The position numbers and the translations under genes were made by a program. From Flavobacteriales bacterium (lineage in GTDB: Bacteria; Bacteroidota; Bacteroidia; Flavobacteriales_D; Sanyastnellaceae), in assembly GCA_030828175.1 (NCBI GenBank), contig JAURDB010000007.1, positions 1 to 36,820 on the forward strand: a DNA stretch of 36,820 bases. Direction: 5' to 3'. The notes under the pieces were generated by a model. That model was not told where the DNA came from. It saw nothing but the letters and a program-made list of their open reading frames with translations, and ran no database searches. How positions within the stretch are numbered: the first letter of the stretch is position 1; each line of letters opens with the position of its first letter. This document shows, one piece after another, positions 4,866 through 19,649 of this stretch.

Positions 4866-6848
4866 TCATTGGCGCACGAGGCGCAATGAGCCTGCATCAG
4901 ATTTGAACAGGTAAGTACCTGAGGTTGGCAAGGCCAGCCGAAGCTCTTTGTTTGGACAGAGCCCTTCTTCTATGGATCTACCGGTCCCGTCGAAAACTGC
5001 GTAGGATCCGATTTGCCTTTCTGCCTTCACCCGAAGCAGGCCGTTTTCGCTGGGATTGGGAAAGGCAAACAAGGTGCTTCCCGCGGTCTCCTCGAGGACG
5101 TCGCTGATGGTCTCTGTCCATTCGAGAGATGCGATTCTTTCGGGCGTGGGAACGAATTCCGCATACAAGGTTCTGAAGCCCTCTATGAGGCTGTCCCCTT
5201 CCAATTCCAGCATAGGAGCTGCCCATTTGGGTGGGAGGCTTTGGTACCAAACGGTACAGGTGAACTGAAGTTCGGTGGTTTCATTCCACCCCTCCGGCAT
5301 CACATAGGTGACCTGGTCTGTCCCTGTTCCCTCCCCTTCCTCGCTGCTGAAATTGAAGTTGGGGTCGTTCAATGCACCGCCGACGACTTCGGTGGTGTCG
5401 TACACGATGTGAGCGGTCGAGAATCCACGGGGGACGAGGCGGTTGTCTTTCAGATGGTCGTGTGCCCTTTCCAGCAAGGTGGTAGGGTCACCGTTCACAT
5501 CGCCCAAGACCAATTCGTAAATGACGACGTCTTCTTCATTTGTGATGATGTCATGGTGCGGTTCCCAAGCGACGTCTTCCTGTCCCAGGATGTGCCCTGT
5601 GGAAGGGTTCCAGGCACCCGAGTGAAACAAGCTTTGTCCATCGGCATCGGTTACATGGAGTTCAATCCAAGCCCGACGGGCCGGGTATCCAGAGGGGAAT
5701 TTGTGGCCTGCCTTGTTGAGCAGGTTCACGACTACGTGCATTTCCCCGGCTTCGATGTATGTGGAAGCGGTGAGGTCCAGCGTCTGTTCTTCCAGCATTT
5801 TCAAGGTGCGATCGAGGGTGCTGTCAAACTGGGCTTCCGTGGCGTTCAACCCCAATGAGTCCACGTTGTTCCTCAGCATGCGGAGCATGTGGGTATTGGC
5901 GCCGACGAAGTAATGCAGGGAGAAAGGAGAACGGGGCTGCAACCAGGCATACCCGCTGGCAATGCCAACCGGATCATCGATTTGGGGCATGTGGCATCCT
6001 TGGCATTCCTGCTGTTCTGGTCCCTCTGAATACACGGAATTGACCCATTCGTGATAGGTCGCCTGCTCTATGACGGAAACGCCGGTGTATTCTCCTTCGA
6101 GGTCCACGCTGTTGGTAATCAAGCTGTGGCAAGCGGCACAGCTCTCAGAGCGCGTCATGTGCTCTCCATACAGCGGCATGAAGCCGATGAAGCTTTGCAT
6201 GGGTTGGTATTGGACCGGGTACTCGTCCTTTCCGCCTCCGTAGGGGCCGTAAATCGTGTCTTCGACGAAGGTCATCTCTCCGCTGAAGCGGGTACCGATT
6301 CCTGCGGCATCTTGCTGGTGACAAACCGCGCAATTCACACCGTCAAGGGCAAGGCTGTCCGTCAAAGCTTCCAGCAGCGAGTAGTACTCTGCCCCCTCGT
6401 GGTGGGCGGCAAAATGTCCGACCGGTGCATGGCAGCTTGTGCACTTGTCCTCCAGTTCCGCGGCATGTCCCGGATTGGTGATGACCTCATGGCGGACTTT
6501 GGCCCTCCAGAAGGGATCCTTGGTACTGTTGGCCATGATGGAACTGCGCCAATCGTCCACCACATTCACGTCCCATCCGTCGGGCATGGGGTCCATGGGA
6601 AAGCTCTGGCCCGCAATGGAGGCGAGATCGTTTGGGTCTTCTCCATGGCAACCTGCACATTTTCCAGAGCCGTAGAACAATGCGTTGATCGTGTCGGGCA
6701 GGCCTCCCAGGTTGTCGTTTCTGAAATAGGCCTCCAGCCCTTCATGGGCGGCCATCACCGGCCGGGGAGAAAATGCCCCCAATTGCCAAGCGGCACTCGT
6801 CGTGACGAGCAGTGTCGCTAGAACTGCAAAACCAATGGCCTTACGCAT
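4866..6848 (-). CDS. Pentaheme cytochrome c with T9SS type A sorting domain
   Basis: Exported multiheme c-type cytochrome of 660 aa. A signal peptide (MRKAIGFAVLATLLVTTSAAW) precedes five CXXCH haem sites at about residues 64 (CAGCH), 136 (CTSCH), 173 (CAVCH), 237 (CAACH) and 282 (CQGCH), with many extra His that may act as distal ligands (HFAAHH). A beta-rich region with NKAGHKFPSGYPARRAWIELHV at about 380-405 follows, a motif I associate with large multiheme cytochromes. The last ~75 residues (LFAFPNPSENGLLRV to GTYLFKSDAGSLRLVRQ) form a type A T9SS sorting domain, so the protein should be exported across the outer membrane. It lies 61 bases downstream of the ASPIC/VCBS gene on the same strand, with a strong hairpin between them. 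The redox partner and substrate are unknown. Confidence 0.88.
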   Translation of the reverse strand: MRKAIGFAVLATLLVTTSAAWQLGAFSPRPVMAAHEGLEAYFRNDNLGGLPDTINALFYGSGKCAGCHGEDPNDLASIAGQSFPMDPMPDGWDVNVVDDWRSSIMANSTKDPFWRAKVRHEVITNPGHAAELEDKCTSCHAPVGHFAAHHEGAEYYSLLEALTDSLALDGVNCAVCHQQDAAGIGTRFSGEMTFVEDTIYGPYGGGKDEYPVQYQPMQSFIGFMPLYGEHMTRSESCAACHSLITNSVDLEGEYTGVSVIEQATYHEWVNSVYSEGPEQQECQGCHMPQIDDPVGIASGYAWLQPRSPFSLHYFVGANTHMLRMLRNNVDSLGLNATEAQFDSTLDRTLKMLEEQTLDLTASTYIEAGEMHVVVNLLNKAGHKFPSGYPARRAWIELHVTDADGQSLFHSGAWNPSTGHILGQEDVAWEPHHDIITNEEDVVIYELVLGDVNGDPTTLLERAHDHLKDNRLVPRGFSTAHIVYDTTEVVGGALNDPNFNFSSEEGEGTGTDQVTYVMPEGWNETTELQFTCTVWYQSLPPKWAAPMLELEGDSLIEGFRTLYAEFVPTPERIASLEWTETISDVLEETAGSTLFAFPNPSENGLLRVKAERQIGSYAVFDGTGRSIEEGLCPNKELRLALPTSGTYLFKSDAGSLRLVRQ

Positions 6849-6863
6849 ACTTAAAGATGCAAA

Positions 6864-6892
6864 GGACCCCGCCCGGATACCGGACGAGGTCC
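6864..6892 (-). terminator. 13-bp hairpin between the VCBS/ASPIC gene and the cytochrome gene
   Basis: Read on the minus strand, GGACCTCGTCCGG-TAT-CCGGGCGGGGTCC folds into a 13-bp stem with a 3-base loop, including two G-U pairs. On the plus strand those two positions become C-A mismatches, so the hairpin is fully paired only in minus-strand RNA. It is followed by TTTGCATCTTT, a modest U-rich stretch, and lies 15 bases before the cytochrome ATG. It could end transcription after the VCBS/ASPIC gene, act as a leaky intergenic attenuator, or stabilise the cytochrome mRNA 5' end. The structure is seen directly; the function is inferred. Confidence 0.6.
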
Positions 6893-6909
6893 ATGGATGC
6901 TGTGTTTTC

Positions 6910-9759
6910 TTATCGCAGGACGATCCGCGCCGTGGCGGAGTTCTCTGCCCCTGTGAGCTTCAGGATGTGCACACCTCGTGGCAATTCGTTCAAGTCCAGG
7001 ACACCGAGTTCCGCGGCTCCATTGGCCTGCACGCTGTACAGAATGCGGCCAGACATGTCGATGACTTCACAGGTCACGGCCCCGAAGCCGAACTCGGACC
7101 AATCCAGACGCACGATGCCTTCGGAGGGATTGGGATGCACGCGCAAAGCGCCCTCCAAAACGGTGATGTCGTCCACTCCGGAGACTTCGACGGTGACCGT
7201 GACCGGCACCCGGTCGGAAGCACAGGCCACGCCTTGGGTGGTCACTGTCCAATCGTAGAAGAAGTAGTAGTAACTCGTGGCGTTGTTGGGGTTGCTCACG
7301 CTGGTCGATGTGATGGTCGCGAGATCTCCTATGGCATACGGGAAGTCGAGGTCGCTCCCCTGGCCATCTCTCCACAGCTGGGGATTTCCTCCATTGCTGC
7401 GAAGTCCCATGCCGGTGCCGGCAGGCGCTTCGAGTTCCAGGGTCACGGTGCTTTCGCCGTCGGGGATGTTCACGGTGACTTCATCCAGGATGTTTCCGGC
7501 ATCGTCAATGACGGCGATGCTGCGGTCGCCCTCGCCGTTGGCAAAGACCTTCACGGATTGGATGATGATGGGCTCGTAGGCATCGAAACGCAGCCAGTAG
7601 TTGCTGTTGTTGTGGTACTGCCCTTCGGATTGTTGCGAGGACCCGCCCATGGCGGTCTCCAATCCGTGGTTGATGACATCCTCCACCCAGAACGTGGTGG
7701 TTTCATTCAGGACAGGGGTTTCGAAGTTGTTGCCGATGAACACCGGATTGGTTGCGGTTTCGCTGTCGTACCAATGCAGTTCATTGCCGCTGAAGTCGAG
7801 GGTCGTGCTCGCAGGAGTAGGAATGGAGCTGTCTTCTACTTCTGGGGTGACGGGGGATTCGAATACTTCGATCACAATGTCTTCAGACGCGGTGGGTTCA
7901 GCGCACTCGCCTTCCACCGATACGGAGTAGGTGCCGGGTTCGGTGACCAGGATGGCCTGGTCCGTTGCGCCCGTGCTCCAGGTGTAGGATGGCGCAGCAC
8001 TGCAGATGAGCGTGACGCTTTCGCCCTCGCACAACTTGAGCTCACCGTCGATGGTGATGGAAGGCACTTCAGGCTGGTAGACCTCGATGGCGATGGGATT
8101 GGAAATGCCAGCACATCCGTCGGCGTCGTACACCAGCACGGTGTAGTTGCCGGTTTCTCCCACTGTGACAGCCTCACCTTCTGTTCCGTTGCTCCAGCTG
8201 TAGCTGCTGAATCCACCGGGGGCAGTGAGCGTGGCGGTCTCTCCCGGACACAGAACAGCGGCTCCCTCCAGCGCGAGGTCGAATGCGCCGATTTGGCACG
8301 GCGCTTCGATGACGTTGTGGTAGGTGTCGATGGCGGGGTTCTCCAAGGTGACGGTGAATCCACTGGGGAAACTCACGACAGCACTGTCGATGGCATCTGC
8401 GGCACCCAGTCCGAAGTGGGGGTGGGTGGAGCAGGTGATGCCGTAGCTCTCCCCTGCCCTCACATCGCGGAGCTGTACTCCCCATGGTCCGTAGACGGCC
8501 ACTTGGGCGCCCACGGCGTCCGCGTTGGACTCAATGCCTTGAAGGTCGAAGCAGACCCAATGGTTCTCGTTTCCATCGTTGATGTAGAGTTGGTCGGGGT
8601 TGTTGTTGTCGGGGCTCACGTACACGCCACCGTGGCTGGCGATGATGTCGATCTGACCGTCGCGTCCCACGTCGCCGGTGGCGAAACTCAGCATGGCGTC
8701 TCCGTAAGAGAAGGGCCATTCGAGCTGTTCAAAGGTGCCGTCGCCGTTGCCCTTGAAGTAATAGTTGGAGCTGTTGTCTCCTGAGGTCATGAAGTCCAGG
8801 AAGCCGTCGTTGTCGAAATCCTCGAGCTTGCTCTGCAGGAAAAATCCACTCACTTCCATCCCGCTTCCGGCGGTGATGTCGGTGTAGTGGCCGGTGCCGT
8901 CGTTTTCCAACAGCATCAACGTCGTGCTGTGGTTGGTCACGGCGAGGTCCATGTCTCCGTCGTTGTCGATGTCCCCGAAATCAGCCGTCCAGCTCTGCTC
9001 GTAGAACACGAGGCCGCGCTCGAGGGCTTCCTCGGTCCATCCGCCTTGACCGTCGTTCACCCAAAGCTGGTTGATGCGGCGGGGGTCATTGGGATCGTTG
9101 ACGAACTGGCGGCACTTGGCGATGTACAGGTCCACGTCGCCGTCGCTGTCAAAGTCGGAGAAGACCGTTCCGTAGTTGCCGCTGTGGTCGGTGTTGGGGT
9201 AATCGCTGTAGTCGTAGTCCATCAGCGGCATCAGGGACGCGTCGTTCAAGGGAAGACCGGCTTCATCGCCTTTCCACATGCGGCTGAGCGCGTCGTCGTG
9301 GCAACCGAATGCGTCGAGCACTCCATCATTGTCCAGATCGGCCATGTTGCAGGCCTGCATGAACATGGCGCCATTGTCGAGGTCATCGAGCTGGTAGTTG
9401 CCGCCGGTGCCGATGCGCATCAGGTGTACACCGTCATAGCTTCCGCCTGCGAAAATGTCTTTGATGCCGTCGTTGTCCATGTCGCCGATGCAGGCGCCCC
9501 ACTGGTTGGCTCCGCTCACCGGGCCGTAATGGACCTGGTTGAAGCCGGTTTGGGTTTGGTACAGCACGTGGACATCCTCTCCCTGGTCGAAGAGGACGAT
9601 GTCGTCCAAGCCATCGTTGTCGACATCAATGAAGCCGATGGGACCTCCGCTGTTGAAGGTTCCTCCGAGCTGATCGGTAGCCAGGGTAAAGGTTTGCGCA
9701 AAAGCAAGGGAGCTGAACAGGGTCATTGCCGTCAGCAGGGAAAGGTGGGTTTGGTTCAT
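6910..9759 (-). CDS. VCBS/FG-GAP propeller protein with ASPIC/UnbV, Ig-like and T9SS sorting domains
   Basis: Large secreted protein, 949 aa from ATG 9759 (MNQTHLSLLTAMTLFSSLAFA, a signal peptide); the ORF-track start further upstream adds no signal-like sequence. Residues ~20-420 contain seven FG-GAP/VCBS calcium-type repeats (DVDNDGLDDIVLF, DMDNDGIKDIFAGG, DFDSDGDVDLYIA, DIDNDGDMDLAVT and others), consistent with a seven-bladed propeller. An ASPIC/UnbV domain follows (SNADAVGAQVAVYGPWG, HFGLGAADAIDSAVVSFPSG). Next come two Ig-like units (YSWSNGTEGEAVTVGETGNYTV, YTWSTGATDQAILVTEPGTYSV), a further beta-rich region, and a C-terminal type A T9SS sorting domain (VHPNPSEGIVRLDWSEF to ARIVLR). It probably acts in adhesion or surface binding; ligand unknown. 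Long open frames on the plus strand here are shadows. Confidence 0.9.
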   Translation of the reverse strand: MNQTHLSLLTAMTLFSSLAFAQTFTLATDQLGGTFNSGGPIGFIDVDNDGLDDIVLFDQGEDVHVLYQTQTGFNQVHYGPVSGANQWGACIGDMDNDGIKDIFAGGSYDGVHLMRIGTGGNYQLDDLDNGAMFMQACNMADLDNDGVLDAFGCHDDALSRMWKGDEAGLPLNDASLMPLMDYDYSDYPNTDHSGNYGTVFSDFDSDGDVDLYIAKCRQFVNDPNDPRRINQLWVNDGQGGWTEEALERGLVFYEQSWTADFGDIDNDGDMDLAVTNHSTTLMLLENDGTGHYTDITAGSGMEVSGFFLQSKLEDFDNDGFLDFMTSGDNSSNYYFKGNGDGTFEQLEWPFSYGDAMLSFATGDVGRDGQIDIIASHGGVYVSPDNNNPDQLYINDGNENHWVCFDLQGIESNADAVGAQVAVYGPWGVQLRDVRAGESYGITCSTHPHFGLGAADAIDSAVVSFPSGFTVTLENPAIDTYHNVIEAPCQIGAFDLALEGAAVLCPGETATLTAPGGFSSYSWSNGTEGEAVTVGETGNYTVLVYDADGCAGISNPIAIEVYQPEVPSITIDGELKLCEGESVTLICSAAPSYTWSTGATDQAILVTEPGTYSVSVEGECAEPTASEDIVIEVFESPVTPEVEDSSIPTPASTTLDFSGNELHWYDSETATNPVFIGNNFETPVLNETTTFWVEDVINHGLETAMGGSSQQSEGQYHNNSNYWLRFDAYEPIIIQSVKVFANGEGDRSIAVIDDAGNILDEVTVNIPDGESTVTLELEAPAGTGMGLRSNGGNPQLWRDGQGSDLDFPYAIGDLATITSTSVSNPNNATSYYYFFYDWTVTTQGVACASDRVPVTVTVEVSGVDDITVLEGALRVHPNPSEGIVRLDWSEFGFGAVTCEVIDMSGRILYSVQANGAAELGVLDLNELPRGVHILKLTGAENSATARIVLR

Positions 9760-16958: not shown

Positions 16959-19649
16959 ATGCCGGCTGTGTCGCCTATGTGTCGCAAATTCTTTCTCTCA
17001 ACCCTCGCCCTGTTGGCAATGTCCATGACATTGCATGCGACGCACATTGTGGGGGGAGAGATCAGTTATGAGGATTTGGGAGGAGGTACCTATCGAATTC
17101 GGCTTGTGGTCTATCGGGATTGCGGCCCCGCGAATGCCAATGGGACAGGTTTTGATGATGCGGCTTCCGTCGGCATCTTCAACGCCGCCGGACAATTGAT
17201 CGATGTGGTCAACATCCCCATCTCCTTTCAAAACGTAAGTCAGGTGCCCGTGGTGTTGGAAAATCCCTGTGGGACTCCTCCGCCTTCGGTATGTGTGGAA
17301 CAGGCAGTGTATCAGCAAGTTGTGGAGATCGGTGAGTCCCCGAATGGTTTCACTTTGAGCTATCAACGTTGTTGTCGGAACCCATCCATCATCAATTTGA
17401 CCAATCCCGATGATGCCGGAGCCACTTTCACCACCCAGATTCCGGGTACGAATGTCACGGAAGATGACAACAGCAGTCCCGTATGGAACAGCTTGCCCCC
17501 CGTGGCCTTGTGTGCTGGGTTTGATTTTTTCTTTGACCACAGCGCTGCGGATGCAGATGGAGACAGCCTGGCCTATTCCCTTTGCTCCCCCATGTTTGGC
17601 GGGACCCCCAATGAACCGGCACCCAATCCGCCGAATGGTCCTCCTTACACCGATGTGAATTGGGCACCCGGTTATTCGGCCACCAATCCCATAGATGGAG
17701 ACCCTTCGTTTGAGATTGATCCGGTGACGGGCTTTTTGACAGGCATGCCGACACAGGCCGGGCAGTATGTCATTGGCATCTGTGTTGAGGAGTGGCGCGA
17801 TGGGCAATTGTTGAGCAATTCCAACCGCGATTTTCAATTCAATGTGACGGTCTGTGATCCGAACATCAGTTCCAATGTGGCAGTGCAGACCGGAAGCCAG
17901 CTGTGCATTGGGGAGACGATGGAGTTCCAACAGTTTTCCATCAACGCCACTTTTTTCCATTGGGATTTTGGTGTGCCGGGCATCGACTCTGACACCTCAA
18001 ACTTGGCATTTCCGTCCTTCACGTTTCCTGAGCCGGGGACGTACACGGTGACCCTTGTGGCCAATCCGGGTTGGCCTTGTGCCGATACAAGCGAGGCTGT
18101 TTACGATGTCTTTTCACCTGTCGAACCGGTTCTGGAAGTCACGGGATTCGATTGCTCCTCCGGCACGCCCGTGTTTGACTTTGGCACGACGGAAACCTAC
18201 AATGGTGCGGACTTCGCCTGGGAATTTGGTCCGCAGGCATCCAGCGCTGCAAGCAACTTGGCGGCCCCGGGCGGAATCGGCTTTCCCAGCATCGAGGATG
18301 TGGAAGCGGAGTTGACCATCGTTCAAAACGGATGCGTGGGCGCTGGCATCTTGGATTGGACGCCGCCACCTCCCCCCAATGCCGTCATTGCTCCGCAAGA
18401 GGATTTCTGCACGGGTTTCACGCTTGCATTCGACAACAACAGTGTGGGAGGTGCCTCTTTCATCTGGACTTTTGGTGAGCCGGGAAACGACGATGTGAGC
18501 TATGATGCTTTTCCCACTTGGACCTATGATGGCCCGGGTACCTACGAAGTCCAATTGGTCGCCTTGGCGGAATTTCAATGTCCGGATACCACCACGGAAG
18601 TCTTCGAGGTGGCGTGGTTGCTCGAGCCGTTTTTCGAGACACCCGAGCCGGAGTGCTTCGAGGAGCACAGTTTTGGATTTGAGGTGTTGGGGGTCACCGA
18701 TCCCAATGCCACTTACTCATGGAATTATGCGCCCGGAACCGCAGCCATTGAGGCCGGCCCATTGCTGCAAGGGTTGTCCTTCCCCGAGCCCGGAGTCTAT
18801 ACCGTGGAAGTAGTGGTGACGGCGGAAGGATGCGAAAGGGATTATGAGACAGAGGTGGAGGTCCTGTCCGACCCTTCCATTGCTTTTGACGGAGGCCCGG
18901 TATCGGGCTGTCCTCCCCTGCCCGTGAGTTTTGCGAACTACTCCCAAACGGAGACTGCGGCGAGTTACACTTGGTATTTCGGCGATGGCTCTTCTTCCAA
19001 TGCGGTGAACCCCACGCACATTTATGCATTGCCCGGTGACTACACCGTTACACTGGAGATGTCGACCTCGGGCTATTGCGTGCAGGAGTTGGCTTCGGTC
19101 CAGACGGCTTTCGTGCAAGTACTTCCGGTGCCGACGGCCGATTTTTTGATGGAACCCACCCTCGTGGACATCCTTGAACCGGTGGTTCAATACCAGGACT
19201 TGAGCAGCGGTGCGGTGCAGCATTACTACAACTTCGGTGATGGCGGATCCTCCACCGATGCGTCGGGTACATATGTATTTCAGGGCGCTGGCGTGTTTGA
19301 CGTGACACAGACTGTAATCAACGAGTATGGCTGCGTCGCAACGGCACAAGGCGAAGTGGGCGTCAATGGAACGCTGTTCTATGCCCCCAACACCTTCACA
19401 CCCAACAACGACGGGATCAATGACCGATGGATACCGACCACTACGGGCTTGTCGGCCTATCACTGCAAGGTCTACAACCGTTGGGGTGAGTTGGTATTTG
19501 AGACGGAGGATGCCGCGGAGGGTTGGTTGGGCAATGCCCGGAACGGTGATCATTATGCACCCGATGGCATCTACCTGTATGAGGTTTATCTGGAGGACCA
19601 GCTGAGGATTCCCTTCACCTATTCCGGCAGAATTCAACTGGTCCGGTGA
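16959..19649 (+). CDS. PKD-repeat surface protein with T9SS type B (gliding-associated) C-terminal domain
   Basis: Very large exported protein, 896 aa from ATG 16959; ATG 16977 (MCRKFFLSTLALLAMSMTLHA) gives a cleaner signal peptide and is likely the true start. The N-terminal domain begins ATHIVGGEISYEDLGGGTYRIRLVVYRDC, a pattern I associate with Bacteroidota gliding-associated proteins, and is rich in paired Cys. About six PKD-like units follow (FHWDFGVPG with FPEPGTYTVTLV, FIWTFGEPG with YDGPGTYEVQLV, YTWYFGDGSSSNAVNPTHIYALPGDYTVTLEM and others). The C-terminus (FYAPNTFTPNNDGINDRWIP, YNRWGELVFET, GIYLYEVYL) is the type B sorting domain of SprB-like T9SS substrates. It probably acts as an adhesin or matrix protein at the cell surface. 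Confidence 0.92.
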   Translation: MPAVSPMCRKFFLSTLALLAMSMTLHATHIVGGEISYEDLGGGTYRIRLVVYRDCGPANANGTGFDDAASVGIFNAAGQLIDVVNIPISFQNVSQVPVVLENPCGTPPPSVCVEQAVYQQVVEIGESPNGFTLSYQRCCRNPSIINLTNPDDAGATFTTQIPGTNVTEDDNSSPVWNSLPPVALCAGFDFFFDHSAADADGDSLAYSLCSPMFGGTPNEPAPNPPNGPPYTDVNWAPGYSATNPIDGDPSFEIDPVTGFLTGMPTQAGQYVIGICVEEWRDGQLLSNSNRDFQFNVTVCDPNISSNVAVQTGSQLCIGETMEFQQFSINATFFHWDFGVPGIDSDTSNLAFPSFTFPEPGTYTVTLVANPGWPCADTSEAVYDVFSPVEPVLEVTGFDCSSGTPVFDFGTTETYNGADFAWEFGPQASSAASNLAAPGGIGFPSIEDVEAELTIVQNGCVGAGILDWTPPPPPNAVIAPQEDFCTGFTLAFDNNSVGGASFIWTFGEPGNDDVSYDAFPTWTYDGPGTYEVQLVALAEFQCPDTTTEVFEVAWLLEPFFETPEPECFEEHSFGFEVLGVTDPNATYSWNYAPGTAAIEAGPLLQGLSFPEPGVYTVEVVVTAEGCERDYETEVEVLSDPSIAFDGGPVSGCPPLPVSFANYSQTETAASYTWYFGDGSSSNAVNPTHIYALPGDYTVTLEMSTSGYCVQELASVQTAFVQVLPVPTADFLMEPTLVDILEPVVQYQDLSSGAVQHYYNFGDGGSSTDASGTYVFQGAGVFDVTQTVINEYGCVATAQGEVGVNGTLFYAPNTFTPNNDGINDRWIPTTTGLSAYHCKVYNRWGELVFETEDAAEGWLGNARNGDHYAPDGIYLYEVYLEDQLRIPFTYSGRIQLVR

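Follow-up and report, generated by a model that had tools for sequence, protein, structure and literature searches.

A pentahaem cytochrome with a predicted type IX sorting domain, and its recurrent propeller neighbour, in Flavobacteriales

The cytochrome P0001, encoded in a 36,820-nt stretch of the genome of a marine Flavobacteriales bacterium (hereafter the window), is real, conserved and partly explained; it represents a branch, with a predicted T9SS tail, of a pentahaem family that is already known. We regard it, with a probability of roughly 55%, as a cell-surface redox protein that has the neighbouring propeller protein P0002 as a helper, a reading in which the substrate, the acquisition of haem, the passage through the T9SS, the transfer of electrons and physical contact with P0002 are inferred. 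The core of P0001 would gain its haems in the periplasm, and the folded protein would leave through the T9SS, addressed by a divergent type A domain at its C-terminus. Its most likely role outside the cell would be that of an electron relay or a terminal reductase that passes electrons to or from small molecules, metals or partners at the surface, and P0002, a predicted second T9SS cargo composed of a CRTAC1-like propeller and Ig modules, would probably assist in docking or retaining the cytochrome, or the substrate of the latter, there. The T9SS passes folded cargo, and most work on it has dealt with the export of adhesins and hydrolases; should the reading of a conserved, T9SS-tailed pentahaem cytochrome be true, redox proteins also belong to what it displays on the cell surface. 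No paper joining the T9SS with multihaem cytochromes was found in the open-licence literature that we searched. Extracellular multi-haem proteins have been predicted in Bacteroidota from activated sludge MAGs (PMC11495043), and the passages of that study dealing with them differ from the present case in relying on location prediction and in drawing no link to T9SS tails or to the pentahaem family.

The cytochrome gene comprises the following features:

4866..6848, minus strand: P0001, pentahaem c-type cytochrome of the PHC (ExtKL/c552) fold family with a T9SS-type C-terminal domain, 660 aa (ORF, homologue alignment, profile and structure matches)
6750..6848, minus strand: signal peptide region of P0001, residues 1-33 (assigned by eye; cleavage site putative)
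6645..6659, minus strand: haem motif 1, CAGCH, residues 64-68 (CXXCH scan and alignment)
6429..6443, minus strand: haem motif 2, CTSCH, residues 136-140 (CXXCH scan and alignment)
6318..6332, minus strand: haem motif 3, CAVCH, residues 173-177 (CXXCH scan and alignment)
6126..6140, minus strand: haem motif 4, CAACH, residues 237-241 (CXXCH scan and alignment)
5991..6005, minus strand: haem motif 5, CQGCH, residues 282-286 (CXXCH scan and alignment)
5682..5708, minus strand: GHKFPSGYP motif in the beta domain of P0001, residues 381-389 (alignment; H382 and K383 invariant)
4869..5069, minus strand: C-terminal beta-sandwich of P0001, predicted divergent T9SS type A sorting domain, residues 594-660 (homologue matches, profile-profile comparison, structure)

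The five CXXCH sites that the sequence-only reading had counted in this 660-aa protein are all present (ORF 4866-6848, minus strand, motifs at 64, 136, 173, 237 and 282) and invariant among 61 homologues; the highest count reached in 20,000 composition shuffles was two, against five in P0001. Candidate ligands outside the motifs that are likewise invariant among the 61 homologues comprise H312, H382, H431, M105, M217, K383 and K467, with H266 conserved at 93% and H480 at 90%. The AlphaFold model, based on the 61-row alignment, has a mean pLDDT of 89.5 and begins with an N-terminal helix (residues 2-25) followed by a disordered segment (27-39).

Searching this model against the PDB with Foldseek retrieved a single match that was both strong and well aligned, Thermochromatium tepidum c552 (5ze8; E 9.7e-16, target TM 0.64), five further matches at E <0.001 having poor TM and rmsd. 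The family profile recovered the same structure (E 1.5e-7) together with MccSep (9wt8, E 3.8e-6). P0001 shares with c552 the five haems, the overall fold and a beta domain with H-x-x-P-x-G, but c552 is shorter (385 residues in the structure), lacks a T9SS tail and is only 17% identical. In the literature, ExtKL, Gsu2801 and proteins of cable bacteria are grouped as a family of pentahaem cytochromes that contain an Ig-like domain, and their structural homology to c552 has been pointed out (PMC11976967). P0001 displays the traits of this PHC family, i.e., five CXXCH motifs, a c552-like pentahaem fold and a C-terminal Ig-like/beta domain with H-x-x-P-x-G-x-P, and has in common with Geobacter ExtKL/MccSep and the cable-bacteria proteins the order of a pentahaem domain followed by an Ig-like domain. 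What c552 and ExtKL do is not yet settled either (PMC11976967, PMC5877670); ExtI/ExtKL have been linked to selenite reduction (PMC5877670).

Profile searches against multihaem families, together with haem number, fold and domain order, place P0001 in the PHC family. It was rejected as a surface decahaem cytochrome of the MtrC/OmcA type (five haems, not ten; TIGR03507 score 27.5 against a cut-off of 209 bits), as an NrfA nitrite reductase (all five motifs are CXXCH, and CXXCK is absent) and as an ExtKL equivalog (NF040886 score 45.9 against a cut-off of 250 bits), the last model matching 57 of the 61 homologues. The selenocysteine of MccSep (X325 in 9wt8, whose record lists a U325A mutant) aligns with Y388 of the GHKFPSGYP motif, a position occupied by Tyr in 60/61 homologues. 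With Tyr388, neither Sec nor Cys, opposite residue 325, P0001 was also dismissed as an ExtKL/MccSep selenoprotein, and the selenium chemistry of ExtKL is therefore not carried over to it. In addition to this Tyr at the Sec position, P0001 differs from ExtKL/MccSep in its predicted T9SS tail, and no ext genes cluster about it within the window.

Export of P0001 through the T9SS is predicted with good confidence from comparative evidence. The type A sorting tail assigned to P0001 from its letters is supported indirectly, by family comparison, although P0001 itself falls below every sorting-domain model of Pfam and NCBIfam (for NCBIfam, no match even at E<=10). Among the 61 homologues, 50 match TIGR04183 and 35 match PF18962; three of them (L018, L086 and L094) exceed the TIGR04183 cut-off, L018 being the best genus tail of those scanned singly (23.8 bits against a cut-off of 23). 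A profile of the genus tails aligned to one built exclusively from P0002-type tails (hhalign probability 95, E 3e-8), the control region just upstream reaching a probability of 0.1, and the P0001 family profile matches the T9SS C-terminal domain structures 8glk and 7pzj. In the model, residues 594-659 form a separate beta-sandwich (pLDDT about 95) that follows a disordered linker (585-589). The genome of the window (2.3 Mb, 84% complete, 252 contigs) encodes the T9SS machinery, i.e., SprA (2356 bits) and a PorU-type C25 peptidase, along with 36 type A tail matches. It is improbable that the tail has decayed and that the protein stays periplasmic in the source species: the lack of a model match in P0001 and a poor score of the tail in genome G004 would agree with decay, but the P0001 tail still folds with that high pLDDT and keeps the PNP start and the strand pattern, the TIGR04183 matches of sister genomes reach as far as the cut-off, and the genus-tail profile matches T9SS tails. 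Elsewhere in the window (16959-19649, plus strand), a PKD protein of 896 aa bears a type IX signal domain (CHU_C) and represents another T9SS cargo.

Upstream of the cytochrome, the neighbouring gene and the intergenic region contain the following:

6910..9759, minus strand: P0002, FG-GAP / ASPIC-UnbV (CRTAC1-like) / Ig_7 protein with a T9SS type A tail, 949 aa (domain models)
8320..8517, minus strand: ASPIC/UnbV domain of P0002, residues 415-480 (E 8.6e-13)
6919..7140, minus strand: Por_Secre_tail of P0002, residues 874-947 (above the model cut-off)
6864..6892, minus strand: 13-bp GC-rich hairpin followed by a T-rich stretch, terminator-like, between P0002 and P0001 (folding and conservation)

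P0002 is indeed the adjacent and co-oriented 949-aa propeller/Ig protein with a T9SS tail that had been described from the letters. It lies upstream of P0001 across a 61-nt gap and scores above the cut-offs for FG-GAP_3, UnbV_ASPIC, Ig_7 and Por_Secre_tail; the ORF lister had placed its start at a TTG (9870), and starting from the ATG at 9759 yields a proper signal peptide. Its FG-GAP repeats and UnbV domain are those of CRTAC1 / ASPIC-UnbV proteins, residues 328-483 matching cartilage acidic protein 1 (CRTAC1, PDB 9etn, E 5.9e-7), and beyond CRTAC1 it has extra Ig_7 modules and the T9SS tail. Single-sequence structure prediction of P0002 gave a pLDDT of 35 and was unusable.

Of 60 relatives, 47 have a match to P0001 (E<=0.001), and every one of the 20 genomes sampled from other genera of its family is among them; within the order, a few of the matches are weak and cover the tail only. 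Across the phylum, the family profile matched 39 of 396 genomes at E<=1e-10, many to only a part of the core. Named records with relatives of the cytochrome are MAGs of Flavobacteriales, 'Crocinitomicaceae bacterium TMED114' and UBA4474 among them, and no relative was seen among viral contigs. The cytochrome is also carried by four MAG records (L057, L060, L063 and L064) titled 'Chryseobacterium gleum', a species label that is probably wrong.

A survey for the gene pair found a P0002 orthologue immediately upstream of the cytochrome in all 14 genomes of the genus that bear the cytochrome (11/11 distinct cases with full flanks), within a conserved order of aldehyde dehydrogenase, ATE-like, xth, cytochrome, P0002, MtaB and Lgt. 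We did not treat these 14 pairings as independent cases; they represent one syntenic locus instead. One genus genome (G014) keeps aldehyde dehydrogenase, ATE-like, xth, P0002, MtaB and Lgt with no cytochrome between xth and P0002 (L218:6852-6980, about 128 nt), and two incomplete genomes (G003 and G015) gave neither a cytochrome nor a close P0002 match. In the remaining genera of the family, the closest orthologues of the cytochrome are unpaired, and many are located between recF-DUF721-like genes (375-aa RecF-like and a small 97-aa DUF721-like protein, identified by eye) and phoH, a neighbourhood that we took as housekeeping context and dismissed as a functional clue. Several P0002 orthologues in these genera are also solo, beside MtaB-Lgt; with the two orthologues at separate loci there, the pair of the genus was therefore formed from two separate loci.

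A second pairing joins a cytochrome of another paralogue clade to a different propeller paralogue, 35-37% identical to P0002 and encoded downstream of that cytochrome. It occurs in G017, G021, G022, G027, G031 and G033, and also in G030, where an additional propeller gene separates the two. In the trees, the genus pair, with P0002 upstream, and this second pair, with the propeller downstream, fall into different paralogue clades. Differing as they do in both paralogues and gene order, at least two pairings look independent. Other pairs have the propeller upstream and touching (G040 and G051), downstream (G045) or divergent (G055). Of the 41 cytochrome genes outside the genus, 8 have a close relative of P0002 no more than 1 kb away and 33 are unpaired. 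The complete 4.1 Mb genome G027 contains about three relatives as close to P0002, and chance adjacency should therefore be well below 1% per gene. Two genes downstream of the pentahaem cytochrome of G051, contig L111 has a 761-aa open frame with eight CXXCH motifs.

The hairpin between the two genes (-28.4 kcal/mol, z -4.7) is kept in 13/14 genus genomes, through some pair changes. A hairpin of this kind also lies 3' of the P0002 orthologue in G014, where there is no cytochrome, and terminator-like hairpins lie 3' of several P0002 orthologues in other genera, so that it is best interpreted as the terminator of P0002 itself. As only about 15-20 nt separate it from the start of the cytochrome, the latter is probably reached by read-through or from a promoter overlapping the hairpin; neither a sigma-70-type nor a Bacteroidota -33/-7-like promoter pattern rose above chance. 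Given the terminator-like hairpin between the genes (13/14) and the G014 locus without a cytochrome, a simple P0002-P0001 operon is doubtful. The part of the second-clade pairs that we folded contained no such hairpin.

A contrasting arrangement came to light in the phylum sample, where 11 of the 396 genomes encode tailless pentahaem homologues of about 550-590 aa that form one clade in the tree (support 100; nine of the 11 included). Directly upstream of the tailless gene and co-oriented with it, all 11 genomes encode a fusion of a class I monohaem cytochrome with a putative outer-membrane barrel, for example:

L167:5742-6929, plus strand: monohaem cytochrome / putative outer-membrane beta-barrel fusion (PF13557-like, C-terminal Trp)

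All eight fusion members compared end in Trp, and six of them match PF13557 (best 1.4e-4). Strong fusion matches (over 500 bits) occur in exactly these 11 genomes of the phylum sample, and none was found in its tailed genomes or in the 60 relatives, although the tailless clade is one evolutionary event, so that the tail/barrel association does not extend over independent cases. We rejected loss of the T9SS as the origin of the tailless form, SprA and sorting-domain proteins being present in all 22 genomes compared. In G360, a second tailless copy, in a frame with internal stops, has no barrel. The layout of a monohaem cytochrome joined to a putative outer-membrane barrel presumably resembles that of Cyc2-type fused cytochrome-porins, a likeness that we take as a lead only; the partner of the tailless homologues differs from Cyc2-type proteins in its length of about 396 aa and its PF13557-type similarity. 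This contrast is suggestive of electron exchange by the pentahaem core, at the outer membrane or beyond it, whether the protein is tailed or has the barrel partner. We tentatively propose, at somewhat less than even odds, that there are two routes outward: the whole protein would travel via the T9SS, often beside a CRTAC1-like cargo, or it would be tailless and wired through a dedicated monohaem-cytochrome/barrel fusion encoded upstream. If true, this would describe a new family of surface redox modules that is widespread in the Flavobacteriales family of the window.

As to the functional link with the propeller that the sequence-only reading had supposed, the pair might also consist of two unrelated T9SS cargoes, the cytochrome having settled beside P0002 once in the ancestor of the genus and stayed there through synteny of the locus. 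We find this conceivable but somewhat doubtful. The whole stretch is syntenic, so the 14 genomes amount to one event; the terminator of P0002 stands between the genes, the cytochrome is absent there in G014, and most cytochrome genes outside the genus are unpaired. Against it stand the second pairing, which involves another clade, different paralogues, the opposite order and short hairpin-free gaps, and the further pairs in G040/G051, G045 and G055; the few close P0002 relatives of G027 make chance adjacency rare. A functional link between P0001 and P0002 is moderately supported, with the propeller as a recurrent but not an obligate neighbour.

What the exported cytochrome does is the second point on which readings diverge. 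The proposed extracellular electron transfer gains from the presence of ExtKL in the same fold family and from the tailless relatives beside an outer-membrane fusion, and loses from the lack of an MtrB-type porin (MtrB/PioB), none being found in the 84%-complete genome of the window; electron exchange of P0001 with extracellular acceptors or donors is accordingly something we hold as possible rather than probable. The only other PF14522 protein found in this genome (L217, G000:C142; six CXXCH motifs in a 473-aa frame) may be of the respiratory ActA type, i.e., an alternative complex III subunit, and this single protein, coupled with the missing porin, speaks against classical respiratory extracellular electron transfer here. 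Alternatively, P0001 could be an extracellular enzyme and not a relay, e.g., an oxyanion or peroxide reductase or another detoxifying protein, built on the fold that is the base of the ExtKL/MccSep selenocysteine site. The homology around that site, with Tyr388 in 60/61 homologues, would suit an enzyme, as would the invariant histidines outside CXXCH, which (H312, H382 and H431, plus H266 at 93%) are too few for five bis-His haems, and the invariant M105 and M217, with which a haem of other ligation is possible; the same direction is indicated by the missing conduit and by the tie of ExtI/ExtKL to selenite reduction (PMC5877670). Yet the catalytic signatures (CXXCK, Sec) are absent and an enzyme outside the cell would still need an electron source, and we rate this alternative as rather unlikely. 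For the surface redox protein that we favour, the tail-or-barrel contrast frames a testable question, i.e., whether it is an extracellular electron-exchange protein, and how it is fed without a known conduit. The recurring pair and the tail/barrel switch hint at an overlooked kind of surface redox chemistry.

The ASPIC/UnbV propeller family adjoins other kinds of haem proteins too. Two examples from a different family of the order are 371- and 381-aa proteins, each with two CXXCH motifs, whose genes directly adjoin those of ASPIC/UnbV proteins (L206:7283-8395, minus strand, and L207:3484-4626, plus strand), and in G027 a dihaem cytochrome c peroxidase (CCP_MauG, E 4e-51; L117:8080-9201, minus strand) lies two genes from a solo P0002 homologue.
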